Shown here: positions 2,676 through 24,353 of the stretch, piece by piece | Position numbering within the stretch: position 1 is the first letter of the stretch | How the letters are laid out: each line of letters opens with the position of its first letter | Assembly: GCA_017619295.1 (NCBI GenBank) | Contig: JAFZSQ010000043.1 | Location: forward strand, 1 to 34,881 | DNA length: 34,881 nucleotides | Direction: 5' to 3' | Source: Lachnospiraceae bacterium | GTDB taxonomy: Bacteria > Bacillota > Clostridia > Lachnospirales > Lachnospiraceae | Made by a program: the position numbers and the translations under genes | The notes under the pieces: model-generated | Seen by the model: only the letters and a program-made list of their open reading frames with translations | What the model was told of the DNA's origin: nothing | Database searches by the model: none

Positions 2676-2716
2676 AAAAAAGCTCCTTATGACTTATATT
2701 CTAAGCCATAAGGAGC
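2676..2716 (-). terminator. Intrinsic terminator overlapping the amrS ribosome site
   Basis: On the minus strand a hairpin (arms GCTCCTTATGGCTTA and TAAGTCATAAGGAGC, 15 pairs including one G-U, loop GAATA) is followed by six T. It ends the module-gene cluster. The T-tract runs straight into the amrS ATG at 2675. The 3' arm supplies AAGGAG, seven bases before that ATG, so the folded stem would hide the amrS ribosome site. Confidence 0.85.
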
Positions 2717-2743
2717 ATCATTGCAAAACCGTCAGAATTGAAA

Positions 2744-4273
2744 TTAATATCCTTCGCGATGGAACCAATAAGGTGCTCCGTTTCCTCCCATGTAGCCAAA
2801 GCCATCAGACAGGAACTGAGGATAGTCGCTGGCATCGCTGAATACTACAACCGCATTACCCGTTCCGCCTCCCGGGCCACGGCTGCAATCAAACAAAGTA
2901 ACAATAATATCATCCATTTCGGATTTTGGATCAATATAGGAATATGTTCCTCTGCTTGTCCAATAATCGCCTCCAATGGAGCAGTCTAACTCATAAGTTC
3001 CGTTTTCATATAAACGCAAGCAAGGCCATATCTCAGTATCAAAATACTCTTTGTCAAAGTCCGTTTGTGGACTTGCCAAGAATGTTCCATAAATGCAGCC
3101 AATCCAATATCCGTTTGGACCGTACTCTTCACCGTTAGGAATAATTTGGCCGTCTTCCTTTACGGCATAATCAAGAGAGTCTTTATCGTAGTCAACAGAA
3201 TCCACATATTCTTCCGCGACAGTCTGTGTTCCTGAACTTGAATCCTTCCTTACCGGAGAATCTGAACTCTCATAGAAATTGATGTCGTACTTTATTACTT
3301 CAGAGGTATAGAAGTATTCCTCAACAAATTCTGCCTCATCATTATGCTGAATACAAAGCCATCCATTTTCGGGAAGACTTTCAAAGGAAAAACCTGAAAC
3401 TCCTGAGCAATTGATTCGCATGTTTATTACGTCGTCACCCATATGCAAATCAATAACATCAAAGTATTCCATGTTATCAGATCCATCAGATCCGGCACTA
3501 TGATGAATCATGTAACTCTCAATCACGCCATCAACTTCACCAAGGTCACCGCAGATAAATTCCCAATCATCAAATGTAAGAACTGCTCCTCTTATTTCAT
3601 CACCGCGATTATCTTTGGTATCAATTATTAAATTTGCCTGACTGGGTCCTTTAATCAGAAGTTCTAAAACTCCATCTTTAACTTTGGATTTACCATTTAC
3701 CAAAGGTGCCTCTTCGTTTTTTGAAGAAGATGAGGAATTGTTCACCGAAGAATTGCCTGTATCAGATGTGCTCGAAACACTGCTTGCATTCTCATTTCCG
3801 GAATCTCCGGAATCTTTGTTAAGTACAAACTTCCAAATACCAGCTCCTGCCAAAGCCAATACAACTACCGCAGCAATTGCAATTCCGGCAACTTTTAGCC
3901 CTTTCTTATTACCAGCTCCAGTGCTTTTCGAGCCAACCACCTGCTTAGGTCCAGGTACGTCAATACTCAACTTTCCTACAGGACCTGTCGCGACTACGGG
4001 TCCTCCTGCTAAAGGTGCTCTTCCATTAATAGGAGTAATTTTCAACTCCGGTTCCGGAGGCGCAGGTTTAAGGCCTGACGTCACCGACTCGGAAGCCTGT
4101 ACCACACTTCCTTCAATTGGGTAAACATCCTGCCTGTATTCTCCTGTGTCGGCGTTAAACCAGGTGACAACCTGACTCTTTGCGCCCTTTTCGTCCTCTG
4201 CAATAATCTGTGTGTAATATAGGCCCGTATTTGAGTCCAATAGATAACCTTCAGGTGCCTGATACTTTGCCAT
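2744..4273 (-). CDS. Gene A: OCRE-like module, membrane helix, external beta-rich domain
   Basis: This 509-residue protein is not from a family I can name. Residues 1-53 are the shared module (MAKYQAPEGY, NTGLYYTQ, VTWFNADTGEY, YP). A proline-rich linker covers 66-110 (APPEPELK). A membrane helix spans about 127-150, followed by a Ser/Asn/Glu-rich spacer to about 188. Residues 190-509 form a beta-rich domain, predicted outside the cell. With no signal peptide and a positive patch before the helix, the module should face the cytosol. The C-terminal 120 residues match gene B, including the ending GFGYMGGNGAPYWF. It is the last gene of the E-D-C-B-A block and is followed by a strong terminator. 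An AAGGGG ribosome site precedes the ATG. Confidence 0.85.
   Translation of the reverse strand: MAKYQAPEGYLLDSNTGLYYTQIIAEDEKGAKSQVVTWFNADTGEYRQDVYPIEGSVVQASESVTSGLKPAPPEPELKITPINGRAPLAGGPVVATGPVGKLSIDVPGPKQVVGSKSTGAGNKKGLKVAGIAIAAVVVLALAGAGIWKFVLNKDSGDSGNENASSVSSTSDTGNSSVNNSSSSSKNEEAPLVNGKSKVKDGVLELLIKGPSQANLIIDTKDNRGDEIRGAVLTFDDWEFICGDLGEVDGVIESYMIHHSAGSDGSDNMEYFDVIDLHMGDDVINMRINCSGVSGFSFESLPENGWLCIQHNDEAEFVEEYFYTSEVIKYDINFYESSDSPVRKDSSSGTQTVAEEYVDSVDYDKDSLDYAVKEDGQIIPNGEEYGPNGYWIGCIYGTFLASPQTDFDKEYFDTEIWPCLRLYENGTYELDCSIGGDYWTSRGTYSYIDPKSEMDDIIVTLFDCSRGPGGGTGNAVVVFSDASDYPQFLSDGFGYMGGNGAPYWFHREGY
4125..4180 (-). repeat. Module-coding DNA repeat, copy in gene A
   Basis: These 56 bases encode the conserved core of the N-terminal module and differ from 5637-5692 (gene B) at only three positions by my count. 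The rest of the two genes is far more diverged, which suggests recent duplication or gene conversion of the module. Confidence 0.75.
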
Positions 4274-4285
4274 AACTGTTTCCCC

Positions 4286-5785
4286 TTAATTTACTCTCTT
4301 AAACTCGTAAGGTGCTCCACCGTAACCCATACAGCCAAATCCTTCTTCTAAGAAGTAGCCGTATTCGGCACGTTGATAGTCTATGCAAAATGTACTTGTG
4401 GCAGGTACACCATTTTGAGTGCCGTAATCGCTAAGGTATATATCTACACCGTAACCGTTTTCAACCACCTTATACTCTCCACCGTAATCATTAAATCCCT
4501 CCAGGAAATTTACATGCATGTAAAAGCTTCCGTTCTCATAAAACTCAATGGTGGTAGCTGCATCACCCGGTAAATTTGGATCGGTGGTCGCGAATTTATG
4601 AAGATAGCAAGGAACGTAATCTGAGTCGCCATAGTTTCCGGCTGCAATCTCCATCTTCTCATCATCACTATAATCCGACTCATATGTGTTCAATCCACCG
4701 AACAAATCTGCCGGCTTTTGTTTCTCCTTCTTATCCTTATCCATACTTGCGGAATGATATGGCTCATCAACTGAAACATATAAATCATCCAGTGTCACAG
4801 CATCGTCCCAATATGGGGCATATACCTGAAATACAAATTTTGTATCTCTATTCATGTCCCCATCCAAACCGTTTGAGAAGTCGTAAAAGCACAAATTGTA
4901 GCCATCCACCTTCACCAAGGCAGTACCGGTATCACCCTTATATCTGTATTGGCATTTCATGTCCCTGGCATATATTTCTTCTGCTCCTGAAGTCTCATCA
5001 TAGCTATTGTCTAAATACACTTCGAAAATATTATCACTCGAGCATAAATACCACATATAATTACAGCTCATGTTCGAATTTTTTGCAGGAATGTTCGGGA
5101 AAGCTTGGCTCACATTTCCAATAGTTTCAATATTAATCTGGTAAACGTCGAAGTTCCCATTCTTATACATTCGAATAAAAGAATTCGAGAAAGAATCCTG
5201 AGGGTAATAATCGTAATCAGCATAATTTACATCAGCTGAAGTTAATTTGGTTGTGCTACTCTCATTTCCCGACGAACTAAACGCATCAATAACAGCCTCT
5301 TTCTTAGCCTGCTGTAGTTCCTCATAATCTTCCTTGCTCATGGTGCAGGAAGACTCGCCCATAATAAATCTGATGAAGAATATTACAAGCAAAGCGAGAA
5401 TCAAGCAAACAATCAAAAATACTCCAAGACCCTTCATGAAGTTCTTATTCTTGTAATACTGATAATCGTCTGATGTATCTACCTTTGGCGGCCTGGGAAC
5501 AGCATTCAGCTTTGCCTGCTTAGCTTGTTTCTTTACCTCAGATTTAGATGGGCCTTTAGGAGCGTTTGAGGAAGCAGTCGCTTTTGCCCCATTAGAAATA
5601 GGAGGCGCAGTATTTGCCCCTCCCTTAACAGGATAAACATCCTGCCTGTATTCTCCTGTGTCCGCATTAAACCAGGTGACAACCTGGCTCTTATTTCCGG
5701 CTGCATCCTCACCTATAACCTGAGTATAGTAAAGTCCTGTATTTGAATCTAAAACGTAACCTTCCGGTGCCTGATACTTAGCCAT
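4286..5785 (-). CDS. Gene B: OCRE-like module, membrane helix, external beta-rich domain
   Basis: The 499-residue protein is built like gene A. Residues 1-53 are the module (MAKYQAPEGY, DSNTGLYYTQ, VTWFNADTGEY). Residues 55-112 are a basic Ala/Pro/Lys linker (VPRPPK). A membrane helix spans 119-141, and an acidic, aromatic-rich domain from about 145 to 499 is predicted outside the cell. The last 100 residues align with gene A: YENGSFYMHVNF against YENGTYELDC, and the closing GFGCMGYGGAPYEF. A Lys-rich joint near residue 300 separates two external subdomains. It lies 12 bases upstream of gene A, certainly in one transcript, with a ribosome site AGAGGA. It has no homolog of known function that I recognise. 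Confidence 0.85.
   Translation of the reverse strand: MAKYQAPEGYVLDSNTGLYYTQVIGEDAAGNKSQVVTWFNADTGEYRQDVYPVKGGANTAPPISNGAKATASSNAPKGPSKSEVKKQAKQAKLNAVPRPPKVDTSDDYQYYKNKNFMKGLGVFLIVCLILALLVIFFIRFIMGESSCTMSKEDYEELQQAKKEAVIDAFSSSGNESSTTKLTSADVNYADYDYYPQDSFSNSFIRMYKNGNFDVYQINIETIGNVSQAFPNIPAKNSNMSCNYMWYLCSSDNIFEVYLDNSYDETSGAEEIYARDMKCQYRYKGDTGTALVKVDGYNLCFYDFSNGLDGDMNRDTKFVFQVYAPYWDDAVTLDDLYVSVDEPYHSASMDKDKKEKQKPADLFGGLNTYESDYSDDEKMEIAAGNYGDSDYVPCYLHKFATTDPNLPGDAATTIEFYENGSFYMHVNFLEGFNDYGGEYKVVENGYGVDIYLSDYGTQNGVPATSTFCIDYQRAEYGYFLEEGFGCMGYGGAPYEFKRVN
5637..5692 (-). repeat. Module-coding DNA repeat, copy in gene B
   Basis: This is the partner of 4125-4180: 56 bases with three differences. It covers the codons for the VTWFNADTGEY core and the YP end of the module. 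More diverged versions occur in the same place of genes C, H, J and K. Confidence 0.75.
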
Positions 5786-5799
5786 AAGATTCCTCTTTT

Positions 5800-6921
5800 C
5801 TAATATCTGCTACCAAACTGATCGTAAACTCTTCCCTTGCTGTCAACGTAAGTAGGCTCGCTGAGGGCCATCTTAAGTACGAAGGGTCCGATAATTACGA
5901 AGGTTACGACAAAGATAATAAGCGCGATAATCCACATTGCGAGAACTCCTATCCACATAGCGCCCATTCCCACAAGAATGGCTGTGGTCCAAAGTTCAAC
6001 TGTGGGTAAACCAATCTTTGCGAATCTGCCCTTAACCATGAAGTAAGTCATCACGTAAGCAATTGCCACAACGAAGTACCAAAGGAAGACAGGTACAAGT
6101 CCCGGCTGCAGCCACGCATCCTTCATAATTCCGAAGGATACCGCAATTACGCTTGGCATCATAAGGATACCGATTATGCAAAGAACTATGGGGCGAACAA
6201 CCATCAAAGGTTTTGCGCCGTACTTTCTCTTAAGGTCAATAAGGTGAACAATAAGGAAAGGAATGCAAATAAAACCAAGGAACAGCGAGCTTCTGAAATC
6301 CTGAGTCTCATCGGGTTTGGCAACAGCCACAATGATATCGATAAGCATGAGAACCATAAGTGGCGCAAACTTAAGCCACAGAGGACACTTGTTTACGAAC
6401 TTTTTGAAAGCGTACAGAAGCTTTCTGATGATTCCGGGCTCCTTAGGATTGCCGTTTTTGTCATATGCGTAAAAAGCGTATGCATCTTCTCCCACGGCTG
6501 CATCTTCATATCCTGTGCTGATTCCTGCAGTAGCATTTCTTAAGTCTTCACTTGCCTTGCCAAATATGCCCTTAGCCTTACCTGCAATGTCTTTACCAAA
6601 CTCGGAAGCCTTTGCTCCCAAGTCACCGGTGTTAAAGTTTGAAGCGAATCCACCTAATCCGGCACCTGCCTGCTTTACTTCAGGTGCGCCGTCACGTGAG
6701 AAGGCAGCTGCTTTTCCCACATACCCGGCAGGAGTCACAGTCTGTGCCACCTGCGACCCCTGAATGGGATATGTATTTTGTGTATATTCGCCTGAGTCGG
6801 CATTGAACCATGTCACAACCTGTACCTGATTCCCTGCCTCGTCATTCGCAATAACCTGTGTGTAATAGAGCCCTGAGTTAGAGTCAAACTCATAACCTTC
6901 GGGAGGTAGATAGTTTGCCAT
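5800..6921 (-). CDS. Gene C: OCRE-like module on a polytopic membrane protein
   Basis: In this 373-residue protein, residues 1-53 are the shared module (MANYLPPEGY, SNSGLYYTQ, VTWFNADSGEY). A Gly/Ala-rich soluble linker follows, including the amphipathic stretch LGAKASEFGKDIAGKAKGIF. From 182 to 350 there are about six hydrophobic helices, then a short tail YVDSKGRVYDQFGSRY that loosely echoes the aromatic octamer of the module. No transporter, enzyme or secretion signature was recognised in the membrane part. It is the only multi-pass member of the cluster and so a candidate membrane platform for the single-pass members. It lies 14 bases upstream of gene B. The ATG follows AGGGG. Confidence 0.85.
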   Translation of the reverse strand: MANYLPPEGYEFDSNSGLYYTQVIANDEAGNQVQVVTWFNADSGEYTQNTYPIQGSQVAQTVTPAGYVGKAAAFSRDGAPEVKQAGAGLGGFASNFNTGDLGAKASEFGKDIAGKAKGIFGKASEDLRNATAGISTGYEDAAVGEDAYAFYAYDKNGNPKEPGIIRKLLYAFKKFVNKCPLWLKFAPLMVLMLIDIIVAVAKPDETQDFRSSLFLGFICIPFLIVHLIDLKRKYGAKPLMVVRPIVLCIIGILMMPSVIAVSFGIMKDAWLQPGLVPVFLWYFVVAIAYVMTYFMVKGRFAKIGLPTVELWTTAILVGMGAMWIGVLAMWIIALIIFVVTFVIIGPFVLKMALSEPTYVDSKGRVYDQFGSRY

Positions 6922-6937
6922 ATATTTCCCCTTTAAT

Positions 6938-7675
6938 TTATCTGATAGCGAATCTTATGTTTGAATAGTCCAAGTTTTCCTTCAAAGAGGGATTCTCATC
7001 GTAATGAACAGAAGCCTTGTCTTCTGTCTTGAAGTCGATTACTGCAGGGAAGTAATTGCCCCTGCCGCTGTAGTTGGCGAAACACTGCATTTCTTTTACA
7101 GCCTCGTCAACTGTATATATCTTTGAAAAAAGAAGTTCGCCTTCTACATCATCGAAGAATTTTACCTTAGCCTTCTCGGAACCAATTGACTCAACGGTAG
7201 CATAATAATAAAGCCCGTCCATGCCAGATCTTGCAAAGCATTTCTCGCCTTCCTTAAGGTCTCCGCCATTGGCTTTGGCCTTGGGCTTGGCCGCTTCGAT
7301 TCTTGCTTCTTCCTCTTCCTTTTCCTTCTCTTTCTCAGCATCTGCAAGACTCATGGATGTTCTTCCTGAGCCACCTGTCAGTTCTTTACTTACTGAAGGC
7401 GCAGGTGCAGGTGCAGGTGTGGGCGCACCCATAGATAATCCTGCCGGTAACGGCGGAGGTGCCGGAGCTGCCTTTGGTGCTGCCGGAGGTGCCGGTGGTG
7501 TAGGAGGTATAGGTGGTGCTGGAGGCGGTGAAGCCTGTGCACCTGCGACATTAAGTCCTGCGGGAAGTGGCGGAGGCGGTGGTGCTGCGTTCCCCGCAAC
7601 TTTCATTCCGTTTGGCAACGGAGGCGGAGGCGGTGCCTGCAAGTTATCATTTGAACTTCCCAATACATTTGCCAT
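6938..7675 (-). CDS. Gene D: proline-rich protein with tandem Tudor/SH3-like domains
   Basis: This 245-residue soluble protein has no signal peptide or membrane helix. Residues 14-95 are proline/alanine-rich with three motif copies PPLPNGM, PPLPAGL and PPLPAGL (near 18-24, 35-41, 74-80). Residues 111-137 are a charged helix (EKEKEKEEEEARIEAAK). Residues 143-187 and 195-243 look like two Tudor/SH3-like barrels: the first has CFARSGMDGLYYYATV then VKFFDDVEGELL, the second CFANYSGRGNYFPAVI then ENLDYSNIRF. It lacks the N-terminal module but sits between genes C and E, with spacings of 16 and 14 bases. Proline motifs of this kind are ligands of WW, SH3, GYF and OCRE domains, so I infer that it is the cytosolic partner of the module proteins. 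The domain call is by pattern only. Confidence 0.8.
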   Translation of the reverse strand: MANVLGSSNDNLQAPPPPPLPNGMKVAGNAAPPPPPLPAGLNVAGAQASPPPAPPIPPTPPAPPAAPKAAPAPPPLPAGLSMGAPTPAPAPAPSVSKELTGGSGRTSMSLADAEKEKEKEEEEARIEAAKPKAKANGGDLKEGEKCFARSGMDGLYYYATVESIGSEKAKVKFFDDVEGELLFSKIYTVDEAVKEMQCFANYSGRGNYFPAVIDFKTEDKASVHYDENPSLKENLDYSNIRFAIR

Positions 7676-7689
7676 TTCTTATTCTCCTT

Positions 7690-7887
7690 TTATTCGATTC
7701 CATAATCCAGCTCTTCGCGACATTCCTGCCTGTATTCTCTGGTGGCATTGTCATACCAGCTGGTGATTTTCAATGTCTTTCCGTCGGGTCTGATGGTGTA
7801 CTCTTCTTTATAAAAGAGCCCCTCTCCGTTAGCGTGGCGATAACCGTCTGAGTTGTAAGAATTCATAATCATAATTGTCTCTCCCAT
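7690..7887 (-). CDS. Gene E: stand-alone OCRE-like module (65 aa)
   Basis: The small protein consists almost entirely of a diverged copy of the module: SYNSDGYRHANGEGLFYKEE, then TSWYDNATREYRQE. It keeps the aromatic positions and spacing but has no linker, membrane helix or external domain. The ATG at 7887 follows GGGGAG at six bases. An alternative ATG at residue 6 is less well placed. It is the first gene after the internal terminator at 7915-7947, and gene D follows after 14 bases. A free module could compete with or cap the membrane-bound modules; that is inference. The small size invites doubt, but the conserved pattern, ribosome site and packing support a real gene. Confidence 0.75.
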   Translation of the reverse strand: MGETIMIMNSYNSDGYRHANGEGLFYKEEYTIRPDGKTLKITSWYDNATREYRQECREELDYGIE

Positions 7888-7914
7888 TGTGATCTCCCCT
7901 CACAAGTTTGAAAC

Positions 7915-7947
7915 AAAAAAACAGTGAAAGATATCATCCTTCACTGT
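7915..7947 (-). terminator. Internal intrinsic terminator between genes F and E
   Basis: The minus-strand hairpin has arms ACAGTGAAGGAT and ATCTTTCACTGT (12 pairs, one G-U) and loop GAT, followed by a run of T. It lies only 28 bases before the gene E start, and I see no convincing promoter between them, so partial readthrough is likely. A second, looser inverted repeat (TGTTACTTGAA at 7951 and TTGAAGTAACA at 7994, one mismatch) precedes it in the gene F 3' region. Confidence 0.8.
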
Positions 7948-8016
7948 CAATGTTACTTGAATATGCATTTTTACCACATTGTAATTATTACGCTTGAAGT
8001 AACATATATTACTATT

Positions 8017-8433
8017 TTACATGCCACAAAGCTTATTTAACACACCTTCTACCCTGAAAATGGCTTCATCCACCTGAGCTCTTGCTCTGTTGATCTTTGA
8101 CTGAACATAAAAGTCAGCTATAAATCCGTCAAAGAAGAAATCCGCAAACATGGCAAAATCAGAAATACCGAAATCTGTTCCGTAATAACCGGAAACGTCA
8201 TTTAATTCGGTGCTGAACTTCTTCAAATCATACTTGGCTTCCTCAATGCATCTGCTGGCATTGCTTATCTTACTGTGTTTGATGGCTGATGAAATGAGTC
8301 CGCCTCCGAGAATATCATATATTCCCCAGCCTCTGGCGCTGTTTAACTCACTCTTTGCCCTTCTCAAGGAACTAAGTGCCCTCTCTCCGGCCTCAATGGC
8401 CTCTCTTCTTTCTTTTTCCAAATCGTAAGGCAT
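8017..8433 (-). CDS. Gene F: small coiled-coil protein of unknown function
   Basis: The 138-residue protein is largely helical. Residues 1-32 are heptad-like and charged (LEKERREAIEAGERALSSL). A central signature GWGIYDILGGGLISSAIKHS (about 36-55) follows. Two more helical segments are separated by an aromatic patch (SDFAMFADFFFDGFIADF). I have seen similar glycine signatures in uncharacterised Firmicutes proteins but cannot name a function. There is no signal peptide. The patch at 92-108 could insert in a membrane surface, but is too acidic for a clear helix. It lacks the module of its neighbours. It is the last gene before the internal terminator and 17 bases downstream of gene G. The ribosome site is GGAGAG. 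Confidence 0.75.
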   Translation of the reverse strand: MPYDLEKERREAIEAGERALSSLRRAKSELNSARGWGIYDILGGGLISSAIKHSKISNASRCIEEAKYDLKKFSTELNDVSGYYGTDFGISDFAMFADFFFDGFIADFYVQSKINRARAQVDEAIFRVEGVLNKLCGM

Positions 8434-8450
8434 AACCTTTATACTCTCCT

Positions 8451-9470
8451 TTATCTGCAGTATTTCCTGATTAAATGATAATCATGTTTTGTAAAAAGCA
8501 GATGCCTCTCCCCTTCCTCTTCGGTGGTGTAGGTCAGATTGATCCCATCTACCTTAATATAGTGATCGTTTCTCTCCACGAAATCAACCACATCCATGAT
8601 CTTCATGTATTCTATTCTATCATGTTCCGGCATCAAATTCTCAAGTCCCTGCAAATAAAAGCTTACAAACAATTCGCCGTTTGAGGTATTGTCAACCAGA
8701 GGATAATAGCCATCCGGAATATCGGGGAAATTCTTACAAGGCAGATACATATCCGTATCTTTAATACTGATTAAGAAATCCGCCAAATCTTCAGTATCTT
8801 CCGCCGCATCGTCAGGTTTAAAGTCATCTGAATCCATGAACTCATCTATGTCGCAGTAAGGAACATATTCTCCGTTAACCTCACCGTAACAACAGCACAT
8901 TTCATCGCCCTTATAGTATCCCATTTCAGGATTCTTGAAATCATCCATGAGAATTCCAAAGAACAAATGGTACCCTTCTCTGAAAGAATAGTCGACTATA
9001 CGGGTGAATTTGTACTCGGGCTCCAAATCGCCTTTTACATATACAGTCATTACCTGGTCAATCTTGGCCTGATATCTGAATTCATCAAAGCCCGTCATTT
9101 GCCTTGTTTTCTCAACAGATTCGGAAGCCTTGTATTTTGCCATGGCATCCAGTTTATCCTTAAACTTCCTGCCAATGGTTCCGTCATCCCCCACAAATCC
9201 AAAGTCTAAATCCAGATGATCCTGCATCACAATATATCTGGAAATGTTTGGATTGCCTTCTCCATACCAAAGTTCTCCGCCATTCTCATATGCAGGAGCA
9301 AGGACCTCCAGTATAAGTCCATCTACGGGCTCACACTCGCAATAAGTAAGTATGCAGTTTGCCCCTTCCGGCATATTAAAGCCTTCCAGATAATCCTCTG
9401 TACTTGGCGTAATCGGTACTGTTACATAATGTTTATAGAAATGTCTGAACTGACGTCTGTCAAAAATCAT
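8451..9470 (-). CDS. Gene G: acidic soluble protein of unknown function
   Basis: The 339-residue protein has no signal peptide, membrane helix or N-terminal module. It is rich in Asp, Glu, Tyr and Phe, with a Cys cluster (GDEMCCCYGEVNGEY near 195-210) and an acidic segment DSDDFKPDDAAEDTEDLADF. The alternation of aromatic and acidic residues suggests a mixed alpha/beta cytosolic protein. I recognise no family. The start is fixed by GGGGG six bases before ATG 9470. It lies between gene H (stop 9490) and gene F (start 8433) with short gaps, so it belongs to the K-to-F transcript. A cytosolic accessory role is the most that can be inferred. Confidence 0.75.
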   Translation of the reverse strand: MIFDRRQFRHFYKHYVTVPITPSTEDYLEGFNMPEGANCILTYCECEPVDGLILEVLAPAYENGGELWYGEGNPNISRYIVMQDHLDLDFGFVGDDGTIGRKFKDKLDAMAKYKASESVEKTRQMTGFDEFRYQAKIDQVMTVYVKGDLEPEYKFTRIVDYSFREGYHLFFGILMDDFKNPEMGYYKGDEMCCCYGEVNGEYVPYCDIDEFMDSDDFKPDDAAEDTEDLADFLISIKDTDMYLPCKNFPDIPDGYYPLVDNTSNGELFVSFYLQGLENLMPEHDRIEYMKIMDVVDFVERNDHYIKVDGINLTYTTEEEGERHLLFTKHDYHLIRKYCR

Positions 9471-9489
9471 TGCTTACCCCCATTTAAAG

Positions 9490-11076
9490 CTAGTTCAACT
9501 CAAGCACGGTATATTCAGCAGTATATGGATCTATATGAAATGCATATTTGCTGAACACCAGCCAATTGGCCTCAAATCCCACAAAATAGTTGTCGCCTCT
9601 TATCATCAGACGCTCTTCAGGATCCGGTTCATCCGGCCAATCCGTGCGGTAATCATATTCTCTGTCTCCAAGAATCCCCTTCATACATACACGCATGTCG
9701 GTATTGTTATGGTCTCCAATCTTATAACTGACAATTATAAAAACTTCATCAGTTCGACCAATAAATTCAAATCCTCTATATCCATACGCGCATTCACATC
9801 TTCTCTCTTCGTTATATCTGAACAGTTCTCCATTGCCACCGAATGCGGACCAGATTGAAATCATATCAGGGTTAAACCCAGTGTTCTCATATGCGCTAAA
9901 TAGTTCTCTGTCATAAAGCCCCAAGGCGCCCATACCTGCGCTGGGGATTTCGGGAATAATATACGACTCCCATTTTGTGTTCAAATCCCATGTGTCTCTA
10001 TTGAAAACCATGGTATAAAGGAAGCAATCGTCAAGACACGATATAGCAAGAACATTGTCCATAAAGCCAAATTCACATGTCACTGTATATCCGTCTGATA
10101 TGGGATCATCGTCATCATCATGAATTTCTCTGCAAAGCTGCTGATAATCAATAAAGCTTAGATCTGTAATCCCCTTATCTCCTGTCTCAGGGTTAAAAGC
10201 CAGCAAATCTCTTCTCTCGCCGTTACGAAGCCATAAATAAATGCGACCTTCATAAGGCACAAGAAGTGAATACTCATCCTGCAGGAATACCTGCTCTTCA
10301 CCGGTATTCTTATTCCTTTGGATATAAGTCATATTCGAAGACCTGTAATCGCCTGTACTGTAATACAGATAATCGCCCATAAGACAGAAAGTATACACAT
10401 ACTCATCCGGAGAAACCACTGTCTCCACACCGCTGCTTCCGTCTTTCTTAAACCTAATAATACTTCCGTAGGGCATTCCGCCTGCGCCATCTTCTTCGTC
10501 TATTCCGATAGCTGCCGGTCCAAAACTAAAGTTGCTATTAAAAGGTTTAAAAGCATACACATACTCATCATCAGCCCAAACTGTATTATAGTGATAGCCT
10601 ACGCCTTCACGTTCATCACACCAATCCCAAATGGTAGTCAAATCTCCGCCGGGATTATGATAATCAATGATAGGCTCGTTCTTTTCACTATCATCATTGC
10701 TTTCTGATGATGAATCACTCGAATAATTGAAAGCCTCAAGATCAGGCACATACACATCAGATGAATCGTTCCCTCTGCCTTTAATAAACCTGATTCCAAA
10801 GAAAATCAAAAGTCCCGCAGCAGCAAGTGACACCAGTGCAATAATTGCCTTCTTGGCTTTATTCCCATTTACATGAGCACCTTGTTGGTCATAATTATTT
10901 GCAGCATTATTAACACCATCGGGATAAATATCCCTGGTGTACTCGCCTGTATCTGCATTAAACCATGTTATTACTCTTACATTTTGCCCGTTTTCATCCA
11001 CGGCCCTTACCTGATTAAAGTAAAGGCCTGTGTTTGGGTCATATTCATAACCTACGGGTGGTTGATATTTTGCCAT
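9490..11076 (-). CDS. Gene H: OCRE-like module, membrane helix, external beta-propeller-like domain
   Basis: In this 528-residue protein, residues 1-53 are the module (MAKYQPPVGY, DPNTGLYFNQV, ITWFNADTGEY). After a short Asn/Gln linker, a membrane helix spans 77-98 and ends in RFIKGRG. An Asp/Ser/Glu spacer leads to a large beta-rich domain (about 130-528). Repeats such as YVYAFKPF, YVYTFCLMGDYLYYST and EGRIYLWLRNGE resemble blades of DUF5050-type propellers, in which each strand pair reports a value with an aromatic Y-L-Y core. The predicted orientation is module inside, propeller outside. The secreted gene I just upstream carries a related N-terminal domain. The ribosome site is CGGAG. Ligand unknown. 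Confidence 0.83.
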   Translation of the reverse strand: MAKYQPPVGYEYDPNTGLYFNQVRAVDENGQNVRVITWFNADTGEYTRDIYPDGVNNAANNYDQQGAHVNGNKAKKAIIALVSLAAAGLLIFFGIRFIKGRGNDSSDVYVPDLEAFNYSSDSSSESNDDSEKNEPIIDYHNPGGDLTTIWDWCDEREGVGYHYNTVWADDEYVYAFKPFNSNFSFGPAAIGIDEEDGAGGMPYGSIIRFKKDGSSGVETVVSPDEYVYTFCLMGDYLYYSTGDYRSSNMTYIQRNKNTGEEQVFLQDEYSLLVPYEGRIYLWLRNGERRDLLAFNPETGDKGITDLSFIDYQQLCREIHDDDDDPISDGYTVTCEFGFMDNVLAISCLDDCFLYTMVFNRDTWDLNTKWESYIIPEIPSAGMGALGLYDRELFSAYENTGFNPDMISIWSAFGGNGELFRYNEERRCECAYGYRGFEFIGRTDEVFIIVSYKIGDHNNTDMRVCMKGILGDREYDYRTDWPDEPDPEERLMIRGDNYFVGFEANWLVFSKYAFHIDPYTAEYTVLELN

Positions 11077-11103
11077 GTATAATCTCCGCTTGTGTTTTAA
11101 GTA

Positions 11104-13911
11104 TTAATAATCTATAGGCTCGTACTTCTCATGATTACTTATTATCATATTGAAAGCCCTGTTAACCATAGTCGGATCTTTCTTAGTCAAACCCCATTTA
11201 TTGGTTACAGGGGCGAGAATATTGCCAATAGTTTGGAAAAATCCCGGATTGAGAATGCTCATCAAATAATTGTAAGCTTTCTGGTCTGAAATCAAACCTT
11301 GATCATAATTGTATTTAAGACTGTCAATCAAATCCTTTCTTTCTGCCGGCTTTATAGTATTCAAGAAGTTTTTAAGTTTCTGCTCCGTATTGTATAAATC
11401 ACCCATTTTACCATTAGCGTACGCGCTAAACAGTTCTTGCCATGCTTTTGACAAAGCAGGTTCAATAGGGTCTTCTAATTTATCTTTCTTTCTGCTAAAG
11501 TCTACCGGTGTTCCGCCACCCTTTTTTACAGGTTCTGAAGAACCCATTGGTTCAGCACTCGAGTTATTTGAAGAGTTAGACTCAGAACCCGATGGCGCTG
11601 ATGAACCGGTCTGGCCGGACTGGTTATCCGAAAATAGATTCTGATTATTCTGCTTACTTGACGAATTACTGAGCGTAGCATTTACAGGGCTGTAATTTTC
11701 ATCTGATATTAGTCCTACAATTTTCCCCGAATCTGCTTCCGTCATTCTCCAGTGTTTCTCTGTTTCATCGTAAGTGACTTTGAATTTATCTGTTCGTTGC
11801 ACTGCTTTTTCCCAGCTGACGTTTTTAAATACATACATAAGTATTTTGTACATCTGGGTTCCTTTATCATCTGAGCCTTTAACTCCGGCACCCAATTTCC
11901 AATCGCCCCTGTCAATTAGAGTTTTTGCTTCAGTTCTTGGTATGTAGAATATTTTAGAAACCGTCACAGATACAATAGCAGTCTTCTTATCTTCAGATGT
12001 TTCTTGAAGTGATATTTTTATATCTTTATTTGTGAATATATTTTTTACAATATCGCAAATGAAATTCTTAATGCCGTCTATTTGACTGTCGTTAAACCCA
12101 TAACTTGTGAAAGTCGAATCAAATTCGCCAAGAAAAGTTTTGTAACTCAATCCGTTTTTTGCCGGAGCATATATTTCAAGAAACCTTTTCTGTGTCGCTG
12201 CAGTTGTATTATAAGTACATCCGTTAAAATTCTCTCCAAGATTACCTGACCAGGTGAACATATCCCTGACTTCTTTTACAGCATCATTAGGGTCAATATT
12301 TTCTTCAGGTTTTTCTTCTGCTTTTTCTGTGGGCTTAGACTCAGCTTTTTCCGTCGGCTTATTTTTTTGTTCGCTTTCCTTCCCTTTCTTAATCTCTCCC
12401 TGTCTTTGCTTTAATTTAGTCTCTTTTTCCCCTGTGATTCTGTCATCCGGCGGGAACACGGTAGGGCCCTTGTCGTCCCCATCAACACCCGGAGACTTAT
12501 CTAACTCTGCCCCCGGAGGTAAAAACCATCCAAGACCCGGGATGTAAATCCATCCTTCTTTTTCCGGGTCTTTTATTGGCTGTCCATTTTTATCACGCGG
12601 GTAATCCGGCCCATATTGAACATCATTTCCTTGATTATTATTTCCTTGATCATTATTCCCGAGATTATTATTTCCTTGATTATTATCTCCTTGTCCATTA
12701 TTTCCCGAACCATTGCTCCCTTGCCCGTTCGAATTCTGGGGGCCATTACCTTGACCTCCGTTATTTATACCCGGTTCTTGCGTTCCTTCTCCTGACCCTA
12801 TGTCCCAGCCTTCGCCATCACGTATAATTCCAGTAATAGGTGGTTCTTTAGAAATAGGGGTTTTTGTTATATCAGTGGGAGTGGGAGTTGGAGTTCTTCG
12901 TCTGCGCCAAACATTCCCGCCGGCCATCATTTCAAGCATATTTTTCCAATCATTTACCCCAACAAACTGCGTTACCTCGAAAGGCGCAAACCAATAATCC
13001 TTCGTAATAACGAAGTTCAATGAAGCATATTGGGAATAACCATTGCAGTAAATAATATCGGAACTGACATAAAAGTTATATATAGGGTAGTATGAAATAA
13101 CGTAGGCAGAATCATTACCCGGCTCTATAGCATATAAATAAAAATCCGATGTGCTTTGGAATACTATGCGCTTGCTGACAAGATGCATGTTCATCCCATA
13201 TATGGCAGTTTTTCTTCCGCTTCCGTTATCCCTGTCGATGCAAAGGATATATCCGCCATATTTATCATCATCCGAATTATCTGTCATTATTTCGAGGTAT
13301 AAAAAGCCGCTAATTTCGATGGAATTGACAATGGTTTCTCCTGATTCGATACTGATGTATCCTATAACCTGTCCGGATTCATCCAACTGGACATACTCAG
13401 TGGTACCATCCTCATAAGTAATAAGCGAGTAGAATCCGGTTTCATCAAATTTAAGATTGCAATACGTACATCCTGGATAGCCTATATTTTGAATACTTAC
13501 GCCATTCGCAATTCCATTAATATCATCAATCAGATATAAGTTCCCGCCATATTTTGTCTCTCCATATCCCATTCCCAAACTTGTTGTTGTGGTAGTTGTT
13601 CCGGAAACATCTGTAAAATACAAAGTATTGCCATGTACCACAATGTTGGCCGCGGGAAAATTTGCCAATGTAAACCTATTCTGATTATTTTTATTCAAAG
13701 CAGTAAAGCATCCGGAATTTATATCAGAGTAAAATAGCCATTCATTATTTTGGGCTACAAAGCTTCCTCCGTCATAGGTATCTTCCGCCGTAAATTCAAG
13801 GGATGCAAAGTCTATGTTCTCGTTATCAGCAGCCTTTACATATAATGAAGGTGCAATATTGGAAAATGCCAAAATAAAACTCAAAATAGATAAAAGCACT
13901 CTCTTTTTCAT
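11104..13911 (-). CDS. Gene I: large secreted multidomain protein of the module cluster
   Basis: The 935-residue protein has a signal peptide (MKKRVLLSILSFILAF, cleavage near VKA-AD). Residues 30-330 are beta-rich with propeller-like strands (NEWLFYSD, GNTLYFTD, GFYSLITYEDG). A basic/Thr-Pro stretch (RRRRTPTPTPTD) follows near 337, then a Gly/Asn/Gln repeat zone (about 395-430) and a PGLGWFLPPG motif near 460 like those on Lachnospiraceae surface proteins. Next is a Lys/Glu-rich zone (490-540). Residues 545-735 look like an NTF2/DUF5105-type lipoprotein fold, and a helical end spans 800-935. It has no membrane anchor beyond the signal peptide. Its start overlaps the gene J stop by four bases, so the two are translationally coupled. 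It is the only secreted member of the cluster; its role is unknown. Confidence 0.8.
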   Translation of the reverse strand: MKKRVLLSILSFILAFSNIAPSLYVKAADNENIDFASLEFTAEDTYDGGSFVAQNNEWLFYSDINSGCFTALNKNNQNRFTLANFPAANIVVHGNTLYFTDVSGTTTTTTSLGMGYGETKYGGNLYLIDDINGIANGVSIQNIGYPGCTYCNLKFDETGFYSLITYEDGTTEYVQLDESGQVIGYISIESGETIVNSIEISGFLYLEIMTDNSDDDKYGGYILCIDRDNGSGRKTAIYGMNMHLVSKRIVFQSTSDFYLYAIEPGNDSAYVISYYPIYNFYVSSDIIYCNGYSQYASLNFVITKDYWFAPFEVTQFVGVNDWKNMLEMMAGGNVWRRRRTPTPTPTDITKTPISKEPPITGIIRDGEGWDIGSGEGTQEPGINNGGQGNGPQNSNGQGSNGSGNNGQGDNNQGNNNLGNNDQGNNNQGNDVQYGPDYPRDKNGQPIKDPEKEGWIYIPGLGWFLPPGAELDKSPGVDGDDKGPTVFPPDDRITGEKETKLKQRQGEIKKGKESEQKNKPTEKAESKPTEKAEEKPEENIDPNDAVKEVRDMFTWSGNLGENFNGCTYNTTAATQKRFLEIYAPAKNGLSYKTFLGEFDSTFTSYGFNDSQIDGIKNFICDIVKNIFTNKDIKISLQETSEDKKTAIVSVTVSKIFYIPRTEAKTLIDRGDWKLGAGVKGSDDKGTQMYKILMYVFKNVSWEKAVQRTDKFKVTYDETEKHWRMTEADSGKIVGLISDENYSPVNATLSNSSSKQNNQNLFSDNQSGQTGSSAPSGSESNSSNNSSAEPMGSSEPVKKGGGTPVDFSRKKDKLEDPIEPALSKAWQELFSAYANGKMGDLYNTEQKLKNFLNTIKPAERKDLIDSLKYNYDQGLISDQKAYNYLMSILNPGFFQTIGNILAPVTNKWGLTKKDPTMVNRAFNMIISNHEKYEPIDY
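12621..12730 (-). repeat. Degenerate 15-base tandem repeat coding for Asn/Gln/Gly pentapeptides
   Basis: Inside gene I, units coding for NNQGN variants (NGQGD, NNQGN, NNLGN, NDQGN) repeat about seven times with period 15 bases. This encodes a flexible linker between the propeller-like and Lys/Glu-rich parts, and its length could vary by slippage. Confidence 0.7.
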
Positions 13912-14315
13912 CTTATAATGCCCTCCTCATTTATTTCCCCATCATAATCTGAAAAGAATATTGTACTCTCAACAACAGAGTCCAGCTCATATATCCTTTC
14001 CAATTCCTCCAACTCTTCATCAGAAAAATGAACAATTCCACTATTCATTCCCCTTATATAGGAAATTACAAAAGCAACAGCAACAAGTGCCAATAAAACG
14101 GGAATGGCAATCCGTAATTTCCTTGATATAGCCTTTGTTCTATCAGATTCCTCTGACAGTACAAAACTCTCCTGCCTGTATTCCCCCGTATCGGCATTAA
14201 AATAATACCGGTGATCATACTGAACACCCGCCTTATCCGATACCACCATTTTCTTCACCCAAAGGCCCGATGCCGGGTCAAATGAGTATCCTTCCGGTGC
14301 CTGGTAAACTGCCAT
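13908..14315 (-). CDS. Gene J: OCRE-like module with membrane helix and short external tail
   Basis: This is the shortest membrane member (135 residues). Residues 1-53 are the module with the most diverged middle (MAVYQAPEGY, DPASGLWVKK, YYFNADTGEYRQE). A basic stretch KAISRKLR leads into a helix at about 68-88. The 45-residue acidic tail (FSDEELEELERIYELD) has no recognisable domain. It is preceded by an excellent AAGGAGG ribosome site. Its stop overlaps the start of secreted gene I by four bases (ATGA), so the two products are probably made in fixed ratio. An acidic tail just outside the membrane next to a secreted partner hints at a tether; that is inference. Confidence 0.83.
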   Translation of the reverse strand: MAVYQAPEGYSFDPASGLWVKKMVVSDKAGVQYDHRYYFNADTGEYRQESFVLSEESDRTKAISRKLRIAIPVLLALVAVAFVISYIRGMNSGIVHFSDEELEELERIYELDSVVESTIFFSDYDGEINEEGIIR

Positions 14316-14326
14316 GACTTTCCTCC

Positions 14327-15094
14327 TTAATTCCCATTTCTAAACACAAAAGAGACAACATCGTTTATGTTGTAATCAAAGTTATAACTATGTCCATCTT
14401 CGTAGTACTCAACGTGGACTGATATATCGTCAACAAGGTCTGTCATTTCCAAGTCAGCTATTTGAGTCAAATCAGCGTCAATAGCAATGACAGGATCGTT
14501 TATGTTGTAATTGGCATCTGCCACATAAGAATAAGAAACATTTTCTTCGGTATCTTCATTTTTCTTCCAGATACTGCATTGAGTAATGCTTCCTTTGTCA
14601 TCCCAGTCGTCAACTGAGATAGAATAATCTCCCATGTAAAATGACAAGTGCTTTACATGCGTTCCCTCTAAAAGGTCCGTATGGCAAACCAGGGTTGCAA
14701 AGCCATCATCATATATAAAGATTTCTATAAGCCCATTCGGTTTTGAAACATCTCCCGGATTAAAGGTTTCTTCTGATAGGACATCGGTGCTTGATCCGCT
14801 AAACCAACCAAGCTTCAAATAACCAAATGCGAGAACTCCTACAGCCACCAGTAAAGCCACCAAGCATATAATTAACGGTGCTTTACTTTTCTTCTTAGCT
14901 TTCTTTGGAGTCTCAACTATCGATGATTTATCTTTAATAGGATAAACATCCTGCCTGTACTCACCGGTATTCGCATCAAACCATGTGACAACCTGTGCCA
15001 TATTGCCTGCATCGTCTTCTGCGACTACCTGTGTGTAGTACAGGCCGGTGTTTTCGTCTAATATGTACCCTTCGGGTGCCTGAAATTTTGCCAT
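14327..15094 (-). CDS. Gene K: OCRE-like module, membrane helix, external domain; first gene of the cluster
   Basis: The protein is 255 residues from ATG 15094, chosen because paralogs start MAKYQ or MANY; here the sequence is MAKFQAPEGY. An in-frame ATG two codons earlier (15100) sits only four bases after GGGAGG, and a longer upstream frame has no support. Residues 1-53 are the module (ENTGLYYTQV, VTWFDANTGEY). A lysine-rich linker (KKAKKKSK) precedes a helix at 73-94. Residues 110-255 form a beta-rich, acidic external domain ending FDYNINDVVSFVF. It is the promoter-proximal gene, facing the divergent chemotaxis receptor gene. Function unknown. Confidence 0.83.
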   Translation of the reverse strand: MAKFQAPEGYILDENTGLYYTQVVAEDDAGNMAQVVTWFDANTGEYRQDVYPIKDKSSIVETPKKAKKKSKAPLIICLVALLVAVGVLAFGYLKLGWFSGSSTDVLSEETFNPGDVSKPNGLIEIFIYDDGFATLVCHTDLLEGTHVKHLSFYMGDYSISVDDWDDKGSITQCSIWKKNEDTEENVSYSYVADANYNINDPVIAIDADLTQIADLEMTDLVDDISVHVEYYEDGHSYNFDYNINDVVSFVFRNGN

Positions 15095-19318: not shown

Positions 19319-20974
19319 TTATTTCTTCTGCAATGGTAATCTCACCATCACAGTACAACCTTTATTCTCTTCCGATTCTACATAGAGCCCATACCGCTCT
19401 CCACAAACCATCCTAATTCGTCTTTCAATGTTTATAAGAGCTATACGGGAAATTCCTACGTTTGATCCAGCGTGGCAATCCTTAAGTTTTTGCCTGAGTT
19501 CCTTTAACTCCGCTTCCTTCATTCCGCTTCCGTTATCTTCCACTGTAATGAAAACATCTTTTTCATCTATAGTAGCCGAAACGGTAACCTTTCCTGCCCT
19601 GTCCGTAAATCCATGAATAATGGAGTTCTCGACAATGGGCTGAAGAAGCATTCTGGGAATCATGATATCAAGGAAAGCATCGTCATCAACCGTCTCAAAC
19701 TCAAACCTCTCGGGGTATCTGGTCTGCATGATTGATGCGTACTGGTTTAGTGCGTGGAACTCATCAAACAAAGAGATATACTCTTCACCTGCGTTTGCAT
19801 AACGGATAAGGCTCGAAAGCTCGTTACAGATTCTGACGGCCTCCTCTTTCTCACCCTTATTTATCAAAGCTCTTACCGCATTTAAAGTGTTAACGGTAAA
19901 ATGAGCACCTATCTGTTTTTTCAATAGAGAAATAAGGGTTCTCTCAGTCTGCAGTTCAGACTCCTTAATCTTTAAATCTGCAGCAAAAAGCGCCTTATCT
20001 CTGTCCTCAATCCTCTTAAGAGTATCGTTGACGTGAATTACCAGATCATCAAAATACTCCTCGCCTGTAAGGGGCAAAGGTCTGTCTTTATTTTCGTTGG
20101 TATTAACGATAATCTTGTAAATAGGCCCGATTATATGCCGTCTCCAGTATTTGACAAAAATCGCCATAACCAGAAGAAGCACCACAATAGCTATGGGAAG
20201 GGTAATCTTAAAATAATTGCTGAGTTTATCCGAAACAGCGTTCTCACAGTAAACAACGAGATTGAATCCGGAGAGACCGATTTCTTTTTCCTTGTAAAAA
20301 ACGCTTTCTCTCAGAATATCATCCAGTTGGTCTTGCGACACATCTTTATTGGAGCATATGATTCGGCCATCGGCCGTAATAACTGTCCCGAGGTAATCCA
20401 AATCAGCATAGGAATTCAAAAGGTTCTCAAACCTTGATCTCTCCATCAGAAGCACAACATAGCCAAGTGATATTTCACCGCCCATAATCTCATTCATACA
20501 CCCTATATAAGTTGTATTATTTGATGATACTGTAAAAATCCTGCTGTGCTCCTTTTCCAGCAAATAGTAGGCTCGCTTAAGTGCTGTGTTGGAAATTTCG
20601 CCCTTGATTCTGTAAAATAAACCGTCATTGTTAAAAACCACCACATTGTTTGCGGGACAATAGTTACCTATAATGCTGTCCGCCCTTTCAGCCACTTCCA
20701 TACCCTCATCGTAGAAAGTTGAGGTGGCTCTGGTGGATGCCATGGAAATAATTCCGTCGAAATGGCTTAAAGCATAAGCGGTATCATTTAGGGTCAGCAA
20801 TTCATTTTCCACGCCTCTTATGATGGCATCAGATGTGGTCTCTGCCTGGGATACCATGTTGTTAATCATGGAACGCCTGGTGGTGAAATAAAAGAACACC
20901 CAAAGAAGCACCAAGAAGCTGCTTAGTGCAAACATAGTAAGCATGAAGTTAATTAGGATGTTCTTTTTCTTCAT
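19319..20974 (-). CDS. YesM/LytS-type sensor histidine kinase
   Basis: In this 551-residue membrane kinase, TM1 is at about 8-31, the external sensor about 32-255, and TM2 about 258-276. A short HAMP-like link follows, then a His_kinase domain with the phospho-acceptor in KKQIGAHFTVNTLNAVRALI (H358). The usual QINPHFLYN is changed to QIGAHFTVN but His and the flanking pattern remain. The ATPase domain has PRMLLQPIVENSIIHG (N box), VEDNGSGM (G1) and GCTVMVRLP. It would phosphorylate the response regulator encoded at the head of the same operon. Two substrate-binding lipoproteins encoded between them are the likely extracellular co-sensors. The gene ends close to the ArsR promoter. Confidence 0.92.
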   Translation of the reverse strand: MKKKNILINFMLTMFALSSFLVLLWVFFYFTTRRSMINNMVSQAETTSDAIIRGVENELLTLNDTAYALSHFDGIISMASTRATSTFYDEGMEVAERADSIIGNYCPANNVVVFNNDGLFYRIKGEISNTALKRAYYLLEKEHSRIFTVSSNNTTYIGCMNEIMGGEISLGYVVLLMERSRFENLLNSYADLDYLGTVITADGRIICSNKDVSQDQLDDILRESVFYKEKEIGLSGFNLVVYCENAVSDKLSNYFKITLPIAIVVLLLVMAIFVKYWRRHIIGPIYKIIVNTNENKDRPLPLTGEEYFDDLVIHVNDTLKRIEDRDKALFAADLKIKESELQTERTLISLLKKQIGAHFTVNTLNAVRALINKGEKEEAVRICNELSSLIRYANAGEEYISLFDEFHALNQYASIMQTRYPERFEFETVDDDAFLDIMIPRMLLQPIVENSIIHGFTDRAGKVTVSATIDEKDVFITVEDNGSGMKEAELKELRQKLKDCHAGSNVGISRIALINIERRIRMVCGERYGLYVESEENKGCTVMVRLPLQKK

Positions 20975-20982
20975 ATTCTTTG

Positions 20983-23567: not shown

Positions 23568-23591
23568 GACAGCTTAATTATACCATAAATA

Positions 23592-24314
23592 CTACATTTC
23601 TTGCATTTCTTTAGGCGAAACACCATAGTATGACTTAAATACTCTGAAGAAATGATAATACTCAGGATATCCGCAATTGATTGCCACTTCTTTAATGAGA
23701 ACCTGCTTGTCCTCAAGAAGTTCTTTCGCCCTCTTCATCCTGATATCTGTCAGATAGCATGTAAGAGATGTATTAAAATGCTTTGAAAAAAGACCGCAGA
23801 TATAGTTCCTTGAAAAGCCAAATTTTTTGGAAAGAATATCAAGGGTAATCTTCTCTGCATAATGTTCATTAACATACTTCACCAGATTGTTAAATCCGGG
23901 ATTTTCTGTCAAAGGTTCATCATTCTTTTCGGGTTTCTTCTTGGAAAGTCTTCCGATAAGTCCTTCCAAAACCATCTGAATGTCTTCGTTGTTAACAGGC
24001 TTAAGAATATAATCAAAACCTGACTGCTGGAAAAACGCTCTGACATTTTCAAAGCTGTCATAGGCTGAAATCATAACAAATTCAGTGTCGACATTTGCTT
24101 CCCTAAGGGCTTTAATCAGCTCATTACCATCCATTTCAGGCATCTTAAGGTCGCAGAAAACCACATCCGGCTTAATGAACTGGATTTCTTCCAGCGCAGT
24201 CTCCGGATTGGTCTGGCTTCCCACAACTTCAAAACCGTTGTCAAGCCAGGGAACCATGTTGATAAGTTCCTCCAGTATTAAGGTGTCGTCGTCTACAAGA
24301 TAAACGCTATACAT
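23592..24314 (-). CDS. YesN/AraC-type response regulator
   Basis: The protein is 240 residues from ATG 24314, which follows GGAGG at seven bases; a longer frame starting 12 codons upstream is not supported. Residues 1-120 are a receiver domain: acidic pocket VDDD (8-10), phospho-acceptor D55 in VVFCDLKMPEMDG, and the switch residues in MISAYD and LKPVN. Residues 143-240 are an AraC-type DNA-binding domain with two helix-turn-helix motifs (LDILSKKFGFSRNYICGLFS and IKEVAINCGYPEYYHFFRVF). It is the first gene of the four-gene sensory operon and the cognate partner of the histidine kinase at its end. An inverted repeat (ATATGC and GCATAT, 24354-24371) just upstream could be its site. Confidence 0.92.
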   Translation of the reverse strand: MYSVYLVDDDTLILEELINMVPWLDNGFEVVGSQTNPETALEEIQFIKPDVVFCDLKMPEMDGNELIKALREANVDTEFVMISAYDSFENVRAFFQQSGFDYILKPVNNEDIQMVLEGLIGRLSKKKPEKNDEPLTENPGFNNLVKYVNEHYAEKITLDILSKKFGFSRNYICGLFSKHFNTSLTCYLTDIRMKRAKELLEDKQVLIKEVAINCGYPEYYHFFRVFKSYYGVSPKEMQEM

Positions 24315-24353
24315 CCCTAAACCTCCAATAATAATATTAACATTAAACATGCT

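Follow-up and report, generated by a model that had tools for sequence, protein, structure and literature searches.

A gene run in Lachnospiraceae with a shared N-terminal aromatic module and a proline-rich candidate partner

Bacterial GYF-type domains (GYF_2/DUF4339; GltJ of Myxococcus) are small domains of a proline-binding type on the inner side of membrane proteins, and YdjG of B. subtilis has a zinc ribbon. Envelope proteins composed of a zinc ribbon and a helix are described for Firmicutes in PMC8581546, including runs with SPFH proteins such as B. subtilis YdjG/H/I. The OCRE domain of RBM5 has a poly-proline ligand and prefers PPII motifs with flanking arginines, according to PMC5127646, and SHOCT is presented in PMC3581485 as a short bacterial domain joined to many others, with a function that is not known. 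Here we describe a run of Lachnospiraceae genes in which one short aromatic module is joined to differing envelope proteins, found in a window (the whole stretch of DNA that was analysed) of 34,881 nucleotides.

The gene run and its shared module

The run consists of 11 minus-strand genes, A to K, at positions 2744-15094:

14327..15094, minus strand: gene K, module, one helix and beta-type outer domain (255 aa)
13908..14315, minus strand: gene J, module, one helix and short tail (135 aa); 4-base overlap with gene I
11104..13911, minus strand: gene I, exported protein without the module (935 aa)
9490..11076, minus strand: gene H, module, one helix and propeller-like part (DUF5050 below cut-off)
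8451..9470, minus strand: gene G, without module, helix or family
8017..8433, minus strand: gene F, without module or family, no helix by hydropathy
7920..7948, minus strand: terminator-like hairpin in the F/E gap (terminator scan)
7690..7887, minus strand: gene E, module alone (65 aa)
6938..7675, minus strand: gene D, proline-rich with a Tudor-like C-terminus, no module, no helix (245 aa); proposed scaffold
7568..7633, minus strand: residues 15-36 of D with two PPPPP motifs, PPPPPLPNGM and PPPPPLPAGL
6941..7264, minus strand: residues 138-245 of D, Tudor-like region
5800..6921, minus strand: gene C, module and multi-helix membrane part (373 aa)
4286..5785, minus strand: gene B, module, one helix and outer domains, C-terminal domain common to A
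2744..4273, minus strand: gene A, module, one helix and outer domains, C-terminal domain common to B

Seven of the encoded proteins (A, B, C, E, H, J and K) begin with an aromatic module of 53 residues, which is absent from D, F, G and I. With an E-value limit of 0.1, a profile of the seven modules finds exactly these seven places in the 2.75 Mb genome (E-values from 2.4e-33 to 2.8e-24), confirming the shared N-termini proposed by the sequence-only reading, and the profile search of one further genome of the same genus gave seven module copies within 11 kb; together, these two results exclude chance. Among 24 modules, seven alignment columns carry an aromatic residue in 15 or more, and a structural model of a relative shows four strands (pTM 0.34, with a pLDDT of about 80 for residues 1-50) and a proline tail of low confidence.

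The module stands before membrane helices in six genes and alone in gene E. A simple hydropathy scan gives one helix after it in K, J, H, B and A, none in E and five in C, for which a six-helix membrane part had been suggested, as well as a signal-like helix at the start of gene I. Comparison of the 15 residues before the helix with those after it gave Lys/Arg counts of 6:1 for K, 5:1 for J, 3:3 for H, 3:2 for B and 4:2 for A. Since the count before the helix equals or exceeds that after it in all five, it fits the cytosolic location deduced earlier from the position of the module ahead of the helix, and placement of one module on the cytosolic side of differing envelope proteins is supported.

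According to the ORF coordinates, the gaps from K to A are 11, -4 (the J/I overlap), 27, 19, 17, 129 (F/E), 14, 16, 14 and 12 bases, so that the 12-30 bases first given for the whole run do not hold as stated and the range is -4 to 129. A second terminator-like hairpin follows gene A (2716-2682), and because of this hairpin and the one in the F/E gap, the run may be split into two transcription units; the underlying scan found 13 sites against 9.4 expected. Carriage by phages or plasmids was considered and dropped because 72 pattern matches on viral contigs included no relatives and H, the one cluster member used in a plasmid search, had no match.

Relation of the module to known domain families

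Pfam and NCBIfam scans of ten window proteins gave no family above its curated cut-off; gene E was left out of these and the PADLOC scans, and its module was included in a Pfam search with 16 modules. The module itself cannot be assigned to a known family by Pfam or NCBIfam at curated cut-offs, nor by PADLOC, which has none, and a literature search found no description of the layout, which agrees with its initial characterization as undescribed. The nearest Pfam family is eukaryotic OCRE (PF17780), which 14 of the 16 modules match below its cut-off when E-values up to 10 are admitted (the best being 2e-4). None of 22 matches in five genomes reached the curated threshold of 24.7 bits (best 20.1 bits), and the OCRE model also gives below-cut-off matches in 5 of 14 control genomes. 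In the genome studied here, the OCRE match with the best E-value is not part of the cluster and falls in a frame interrupted by three stops.

Profile alignment of the module with two solved OCRE sequences scored 27.8, and 150 column shuffles reached at most 18.2. This similarity is significant over the first hairpin only, where module and OCRE have GYxxDxxTGLYY in common; the score of the second half was matched or beaten by 12 of 200 shuffles and is not significant, and the aromatic octamer repeats of OCRE could accordingly not be followed over the whole domain. Membership in the WW family was rejected, as its profile score of 12.5 over 6 columns fell inside the range of 150 shuffles (up to 19.2) and WW is absent among the nine Pfam families matched by the 16 modules; GYF, likewise absent among these nine at E up to 10, was rejected as well.

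Gene D, related loci and the proposed docking of the module

Gene D combines two PPPPPLPxG motifs with a Tudor-like end and is a likely candidate for an inner partner encoded within the run, with binding judged from this context. By a longest-ORF criterion it is the only PPPPP gene in the genome: of the ten occurrences of the motif, D accounts for two, and the longest ORF that overlaps each of the remaining eight lacks PPPPP (a reversed-pattern control gives the same counts by construction and is hence uninformative). Neither motif of D has an arginine within three residues. The D C-terminus stays below the Tudor-type Pfam cut-off (Agenet, 23.0 bits against 27), and its counterpart in genome G705 scores 23.7 with Tudor_3 (cut-off 25.8). 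D and this G705 protein match weakly in pairwise comparison (E 0.014), and a PDB search with the D C-terminus returned the TDRD3 Tudor domain (E 0.13) in second place, behind a fimbrial protein (E 0.067).

Modules occur in 5 of 397 genomes drawn from the family Lachnospiraceae. Lachnospiraceae bacterium G11, a strain named in no paper found by our literature search, has the same 11-gene order, and a few other genomes have smaller versions of the cluster. Eight loci were found, six of them with at least two clustered copies, one with a single copy (G313) and one cut by a contig end (red deer), so that the hits are not the scattered single genes against which an HMM search had been proposed as a check. 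Weak profile matches in G014, G075 and G158 (E 3e-4 to 5e-3) and in G961 (E 6e-5) were set aside, being judged chance hits in unrelated ORFs of greater length. The earlier view of a docking domain that assembles envelope proteins on one inner partner is partly supported, namely for the shared cytosolic module and the conserved neighbourhood; for the partner there is a candidate in D, which that view had not named.

Of six types of locus, four have proline motifs within a module gene or next to one. RUG.242 and the yak genome have PPPPIPAAM fused within a module protein; in G705, a module gene is followed by one with eleven PPPP(P)MG units, another gene joins a zinc ribbon, PPPP and a Tudor-like end, and zinc ribbons and an SPFH protein occur together with the module. 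No PPPPP was found in or beside the module genes examined in G187 and G313. The AB protein of RUG.242 fuses K-type and A/B-type outer domains, and the gene K outer domain is 35% like part of it. The tree built from the modules is too short to resolve deep branching; the J module of RUG.242 groups with those of the window and G11, with support of only 91/65.

Our preferred reading, held tentatively at a probability of about 0.4, is a surface assembly that is linked to a sensor, has outer parts open to exchange and docks through its modules on poly-proline, as their genomic context suggests. Poly-proline docking gains from OCRE being both the nearest family and a poly-proline binder, and from D being the single PPPPP gene together with motifs fused or adjacent to modules in relatives. 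It loses from the missing PPPPP in G187 and G313, the lack of flanking arginines in D, OCRE scores below cut-off everywhere and a second half unlike OCRE. The same modules without adjacent PPPPP would suit docking on a partner encoded outside the run, such as a protein of the cell wall, of cell shape or of signalling, with D as another member and its prolines as a flexible or PPII spacer. Proline-rich linkers are indeed common in module proteins and neighbouring G705 proteins, and G705 has 13 other ORFs with PPPPP; therefore, proline proximity says little there, and rarity of PPPPP fails as a general rule. We nevertheless regard an outside partner as unlikely, given the position inside the run of the single PPPPP gene that the longest-ORF criterion gives for this genome and the RUG.242 motif fused to a module. 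Modules could also bind one another by strand pairing, which would keep the membrane proteins together with no need of a scaffold, as many copies of a beta-rich module in one run, one of them standing alone, might suggest; the single copy in G313 and the resemblance to a peptide-binding domain make this quite improbable.

Proposed exchange of outer parts, sensor genes and comparison with known systems

Between the window and G11 clusters, which are otherwise about 97% identical, the J tail and gene I have been replaced: gene I is 36% identical to that of G11, its neighbours are 96-100% identical, and the break lies just after the J module, a position that argues for exchangeable outer parts. 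Nine cluster genes have dS values of 0.07-0.23 between the two; J reaches 0.61 and the gene that follows A 2.5, and the value for I is too high to be calculated. Gene I is present in 3 of the 397 family genomes, all with modules, and its start overlaps a module gene in all four complete loci that have it. The replacement and the dS values could also be expected of a system chiefly for recognition or conflict, with I as a diversifying outer protein in contact with neighbours, host or phage and the module only its anchor, but this has little probability in view of ten window proteins without a Pfam or NCBIfam family above cut-off and a single weak PADLOC match (run without cut-offs), of A to PD-T4-6 (E 1.5e-4), which covers residues 70-176 and thereby the linker and helix of A.

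A linked two-component system, spanning 19319..24350, was recognised by Pfam:

23592-24350, minus strand: response regulator
22152-23567, minus strand: solute-binding protein
20983-22152, minus strand: solute-binding protein
19319-20974, minus strand: histidine kinase

This sensor unit shares the cluster's transfer history and also lies beside module genes in G187 and partly in G313.

In the favoured surface assembly, the module would be a small beta-sheet domain in the cytosol by which membrane proteins attach to proline-rich motifs. The repeated PPPPPLPxG motifs of D would gather K, J, H, C, B and A beneath the membrane, the free module E may serve as a cap or adaptor, and the Tudor-like end of D could hold a further partner. 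Outside, parts of K, A, B and H would form one assembly, and J would hold the large variable protein I, so that outer specificity could change while the inner plug stays as it is. Control of the set probably lies with the nearby solute-sensing system. Binding, assembly, regulation and the recognition target of I are what we infer here. That the whole represents a bacterial counterpart of OCRE and poly-proline, with a multivalent Tudor-bearing scaffold, a J-tail/I cassette swapped between species and two-component control, is doubtful as a complete picture. If true, the proline-motif/adaptor build makes the outer parts interchangeable. Seven modules with one proposed scaffold bearing two PPPPP motifs form a compact, testable set.

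Like SHOCT, the module is a short bacterial domain joined to varied partners, but SHOCT is mostly C-terminal and widespread, whereas this module occurs rarely and in clusters, and most of its copies are N-terminal. It shares with bacterial GYF-type domains its small size and its probable place at the inner face of membrane proteins, although no GYF match was found among 16 modules. The order of a short N-terminal inner domain, a helix and varied outer domains resembles that of the zinc-ribbon envelope proteins (PMC8581546), yet zinc-ribbon cysteines are absent from the window modules, and an SPFH gene from the run. With OCRE (PF17780; RBM5, RBM10), the module has in common an aromatic, apparently beta-rich build of about 50 residues and the GYxxDxxTGLYY hairpin, and a neighbouring gene offers repeated poly-proline motifs like the RBM5 OCRE ligand described in PMC5127646. 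Unlike OCRE, this module is bacterial and N-terminal, precedes membrane helices and has a longer middle loop, with a second half that is not significantly alike, a score below cut-off and a candidate ligand without flanking arginines. If the reading is true, a bacterial envelope complex would be built as eukaryotic signalling and splicing complexes are, through repeated proline motifs and aromatic adaptors.

Genes sharing the N-terminal module

15094..2744, minus strand: eleven genes, in the order K, J, I, H, G, F, E, D, C, B, A
19319..24350, minus strand: sensor unit of a response regulator, two solute-binding proteins and a histidine kinase

The products of K, J, H, E, C, B and A all start with a common module, roughly 53 residues long, with eight alignment columns invariant among these seven copies; D, F, G and I are without it. 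A module profile run against the window's own genome gave seven matches, all in these genes and none elsewhere. The sequence-only reading had described a run of seven such genes separated by 12–30 bases: the alignment and profile search bear out the run, and the spacing needs correction. In a simple hydropathy scan, K, J, H, B and A each show a single helix C-terminal to the module, five follow it in C (for which a six-helix membrane part had been claimed), I begins with a signal-like N-terminal helix, and E, D, F and G have none. There is good support for an inner adaptor module that is lineage-specific and has a conserved cluster; in an open-access collection with few subscription papers, we found no description of such a module in bacteria.

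Of 397 family genomes, 3 had a match to gene I, and each of these also has modules. The start of I shares 4 bases with the upstream module gene in the window, in Lachnospiraceae bacterium G11 and in Tb.RUG.242 (RUG.242), and 17 in another module genome, G187. A single RUG.242 protein, AB, contains a domain matching the outer part of K (35% over 132 residues, E 3e-14) together with the C-terminal domain common to A and B (34–35%; E 9e-21 for B, 5e-9 for A), a fusion that speaks for K, A and B working together. Other outer domains occur elsewhere: the second module protein of G187 ends in an NADase_transloc F5/8-type domain (E 5e-31) and that of genome G705 in RCC1 repeats (E 4e-37).

Distribution and history of the cluster

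All eleven genes recur, in unchanged order, in G11, the other genome of the genus examined. With a wider profile (E up to 1e-4), modules were found in 5 of 397 family genomes (the window's own, G11, G168, G187 and G705), and at E up to 1e-5 in 3 of 392 order-level genomes (the window's own, G11 and G313). A draw of 38 genomes from the family of G313 gave 1 with modules. The class-level draw matched 2 of 391 genomes, the window's own and G961, the latter discarded as chance; of six matches among 200 family genomes drawn earlier, three were likewise discarded as chance. A pattern scan of an 84,980-species collection, which picks up close matches only and missed the G187, G313 and G705 types, gave five loci in four records, all titled Lachnospiraceae (G11, red deer, RUG.242 and yak omasum). 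The module is therefore rare and found in one order only.

Module copies per locus
Window: 7
G11: 7
RUG.242: 3
Yak: 2 (contig cut)
G187: 2
G705: 2
G313: 1
Red deer: 1 (contig end)

The red deer contig (its 1–1621) ends within a module gene, near which lies an ORF that we take to resemble a transposase.

In 250-base steps, identity to G11 is 95–99.6% from response regulator to histidine kinase (save two steps at 84 and 89.6%), 76–83% in the chemotaxis-like gene, 97% in K, 96% in the first part of J and 61% in its remainder, 49–64% in I, 90–100% from H to A (bar one indel-bearing step at 78%) and 67–83% in the two genes after A. By our own simple silent-site count, K and H to A have a dS of 0.07–0.23, the kinase 0.16, J 0.61 and the gene that follows A 2.5; for I, dS is too large to compute. 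These values indicate that the two species shared the sensor unit and module cluster recently, and that the J tail and I have a separate history, with the break just after the module of J. Across window 11104–14100, the J tail and the whole of I are replaced between clusters about 97% identical, as if by cassette exchange. The interval from kinase to chemotaxis-like gene (window 17108–19258) holds extra genes absent from G11's locus, presumably related to GNAT, thioredoxin-like, permease and ArsR genes.

Module genes of G187 directly adjoin the same four sensor genes, 39–65% identical to the window's. G313 has a module ORF of 73 residues directly ahead of a solute-binding protein (31%) and then a kinase (25%) of the same kinds. 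Sensor-unit genes were not seen in the examined stretches of RUG.242 and G705.

Poly-proline as a candidate docking partner

As a single explanation, docking of the module on poly-proline would fit the genomic context best; that context is its basis. Gene D encodes PPPPPLPNGM and PPPPPLPAGL, two PPP runs and then a Tudor-like region. A profile of this region matched 1 genome among 150 of the family, namely the window's own. Five-proline codon runs occur at 10 places in the window's genome, two of them in D; the remaining eight have no PPPPP in the longest ORF that overlaps them, and at three of these a shorter ORF (81–86 aa) has it. The count for G11 is 17, of which two fall in D, one in the outer linker of I and fourteen elsewhere; at those fourteen the longest ORF is without PPPPP and, at four, a shorter one (62–85 aa) has it. 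Because both clusters were recently shared, this pattern is one case, not two. Gene I of G11 (5368–8166 of that locus) has six consecutive prolines in its outer linker, a run that the window's I lacks.

D was not seen in the RUG.242 and yak stretches examined; there, PPPPIPAAM lies between module and helix of a module protein. G705 carries, after its module-RCC1 gene, a gene whose product has eleven stretches of four or five prolines, every one of them with MG behind it; a zinc ribbon, PPPP and a Tudor-like end are combined in the product of another gene in this run. Three points count against docking on poly-proline: G187 and G313 have no PPPPP in or beside their module genes, G705 has 13 other ORFs with PPPPP (34 places examined), and the proline motifs of D are without arginine flanks. 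The RBM5 OCRE domain binds proline-rich tails, most favourably those in which arginines flank four prolines and the motif recurs several times in succession (PMC5127646).

One run of G705 (2606–14619) brings together modules, proline repeats, zinc ribbons, an SPFH protein (Band_7_1) and outer domains of RCC1 and LRR type; elsewhere in G705 (1053–2267 of another locus), a protein that is SPFH-like by eye has a six-proline run and a SHOCT-like end.

Comparison with the eukaryotic OCRE domain

Against Pfam, every family stayed below cut-off. The nearest was OCRE (PF17780), with matches to 14 of 16 modules under an E limit of 10 and a lowest value of 2e-4; the next-best families matched 3 of 16. 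Over five genomes the OCRE model gave 22 hits, none above cut-off; the hits that fall in module genes number 6 of 7 in the window's genome, 6 of 7 in G11, 2 of 2 in G187, 1 of 4 for G705 and 1 of 2 for G313. It also gave sub-threshold matches in 5 of 14 control genomes, and its lowest E-value in the window's genome lies outside the cluster, on a reading frame interrupted by three stops. When solved structures were searched with a profile, the RBM10 and RBM5 OCRE domains came last among 17 chance-level hits (E 5 and 7). An AlphaFold2 model of a relative's module (pLDDT about 80 for residues 1–50, pTM 0.34) has strands at 11–13, 18–26, 32–39 and 46–51.

The WW domain was rejected, its profile score of 12.5 lying inside its own shuffles. 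When 24 modules were aligned as a profile with two solved OCRE sequences, the score was 27.8 and the highest of 150 column shuffles 18.2, with YQAPEGYLLDSNTGLYYTQ of the module paired with YDESSGYYYDPTTGLYYDP of OCRE. In the second half, TWFNADTGEY pairs with YYYNSLTQQY, and 12 of 200 shuffles score equally high. We limit the term OCRE-like to the first hairpin of the module.
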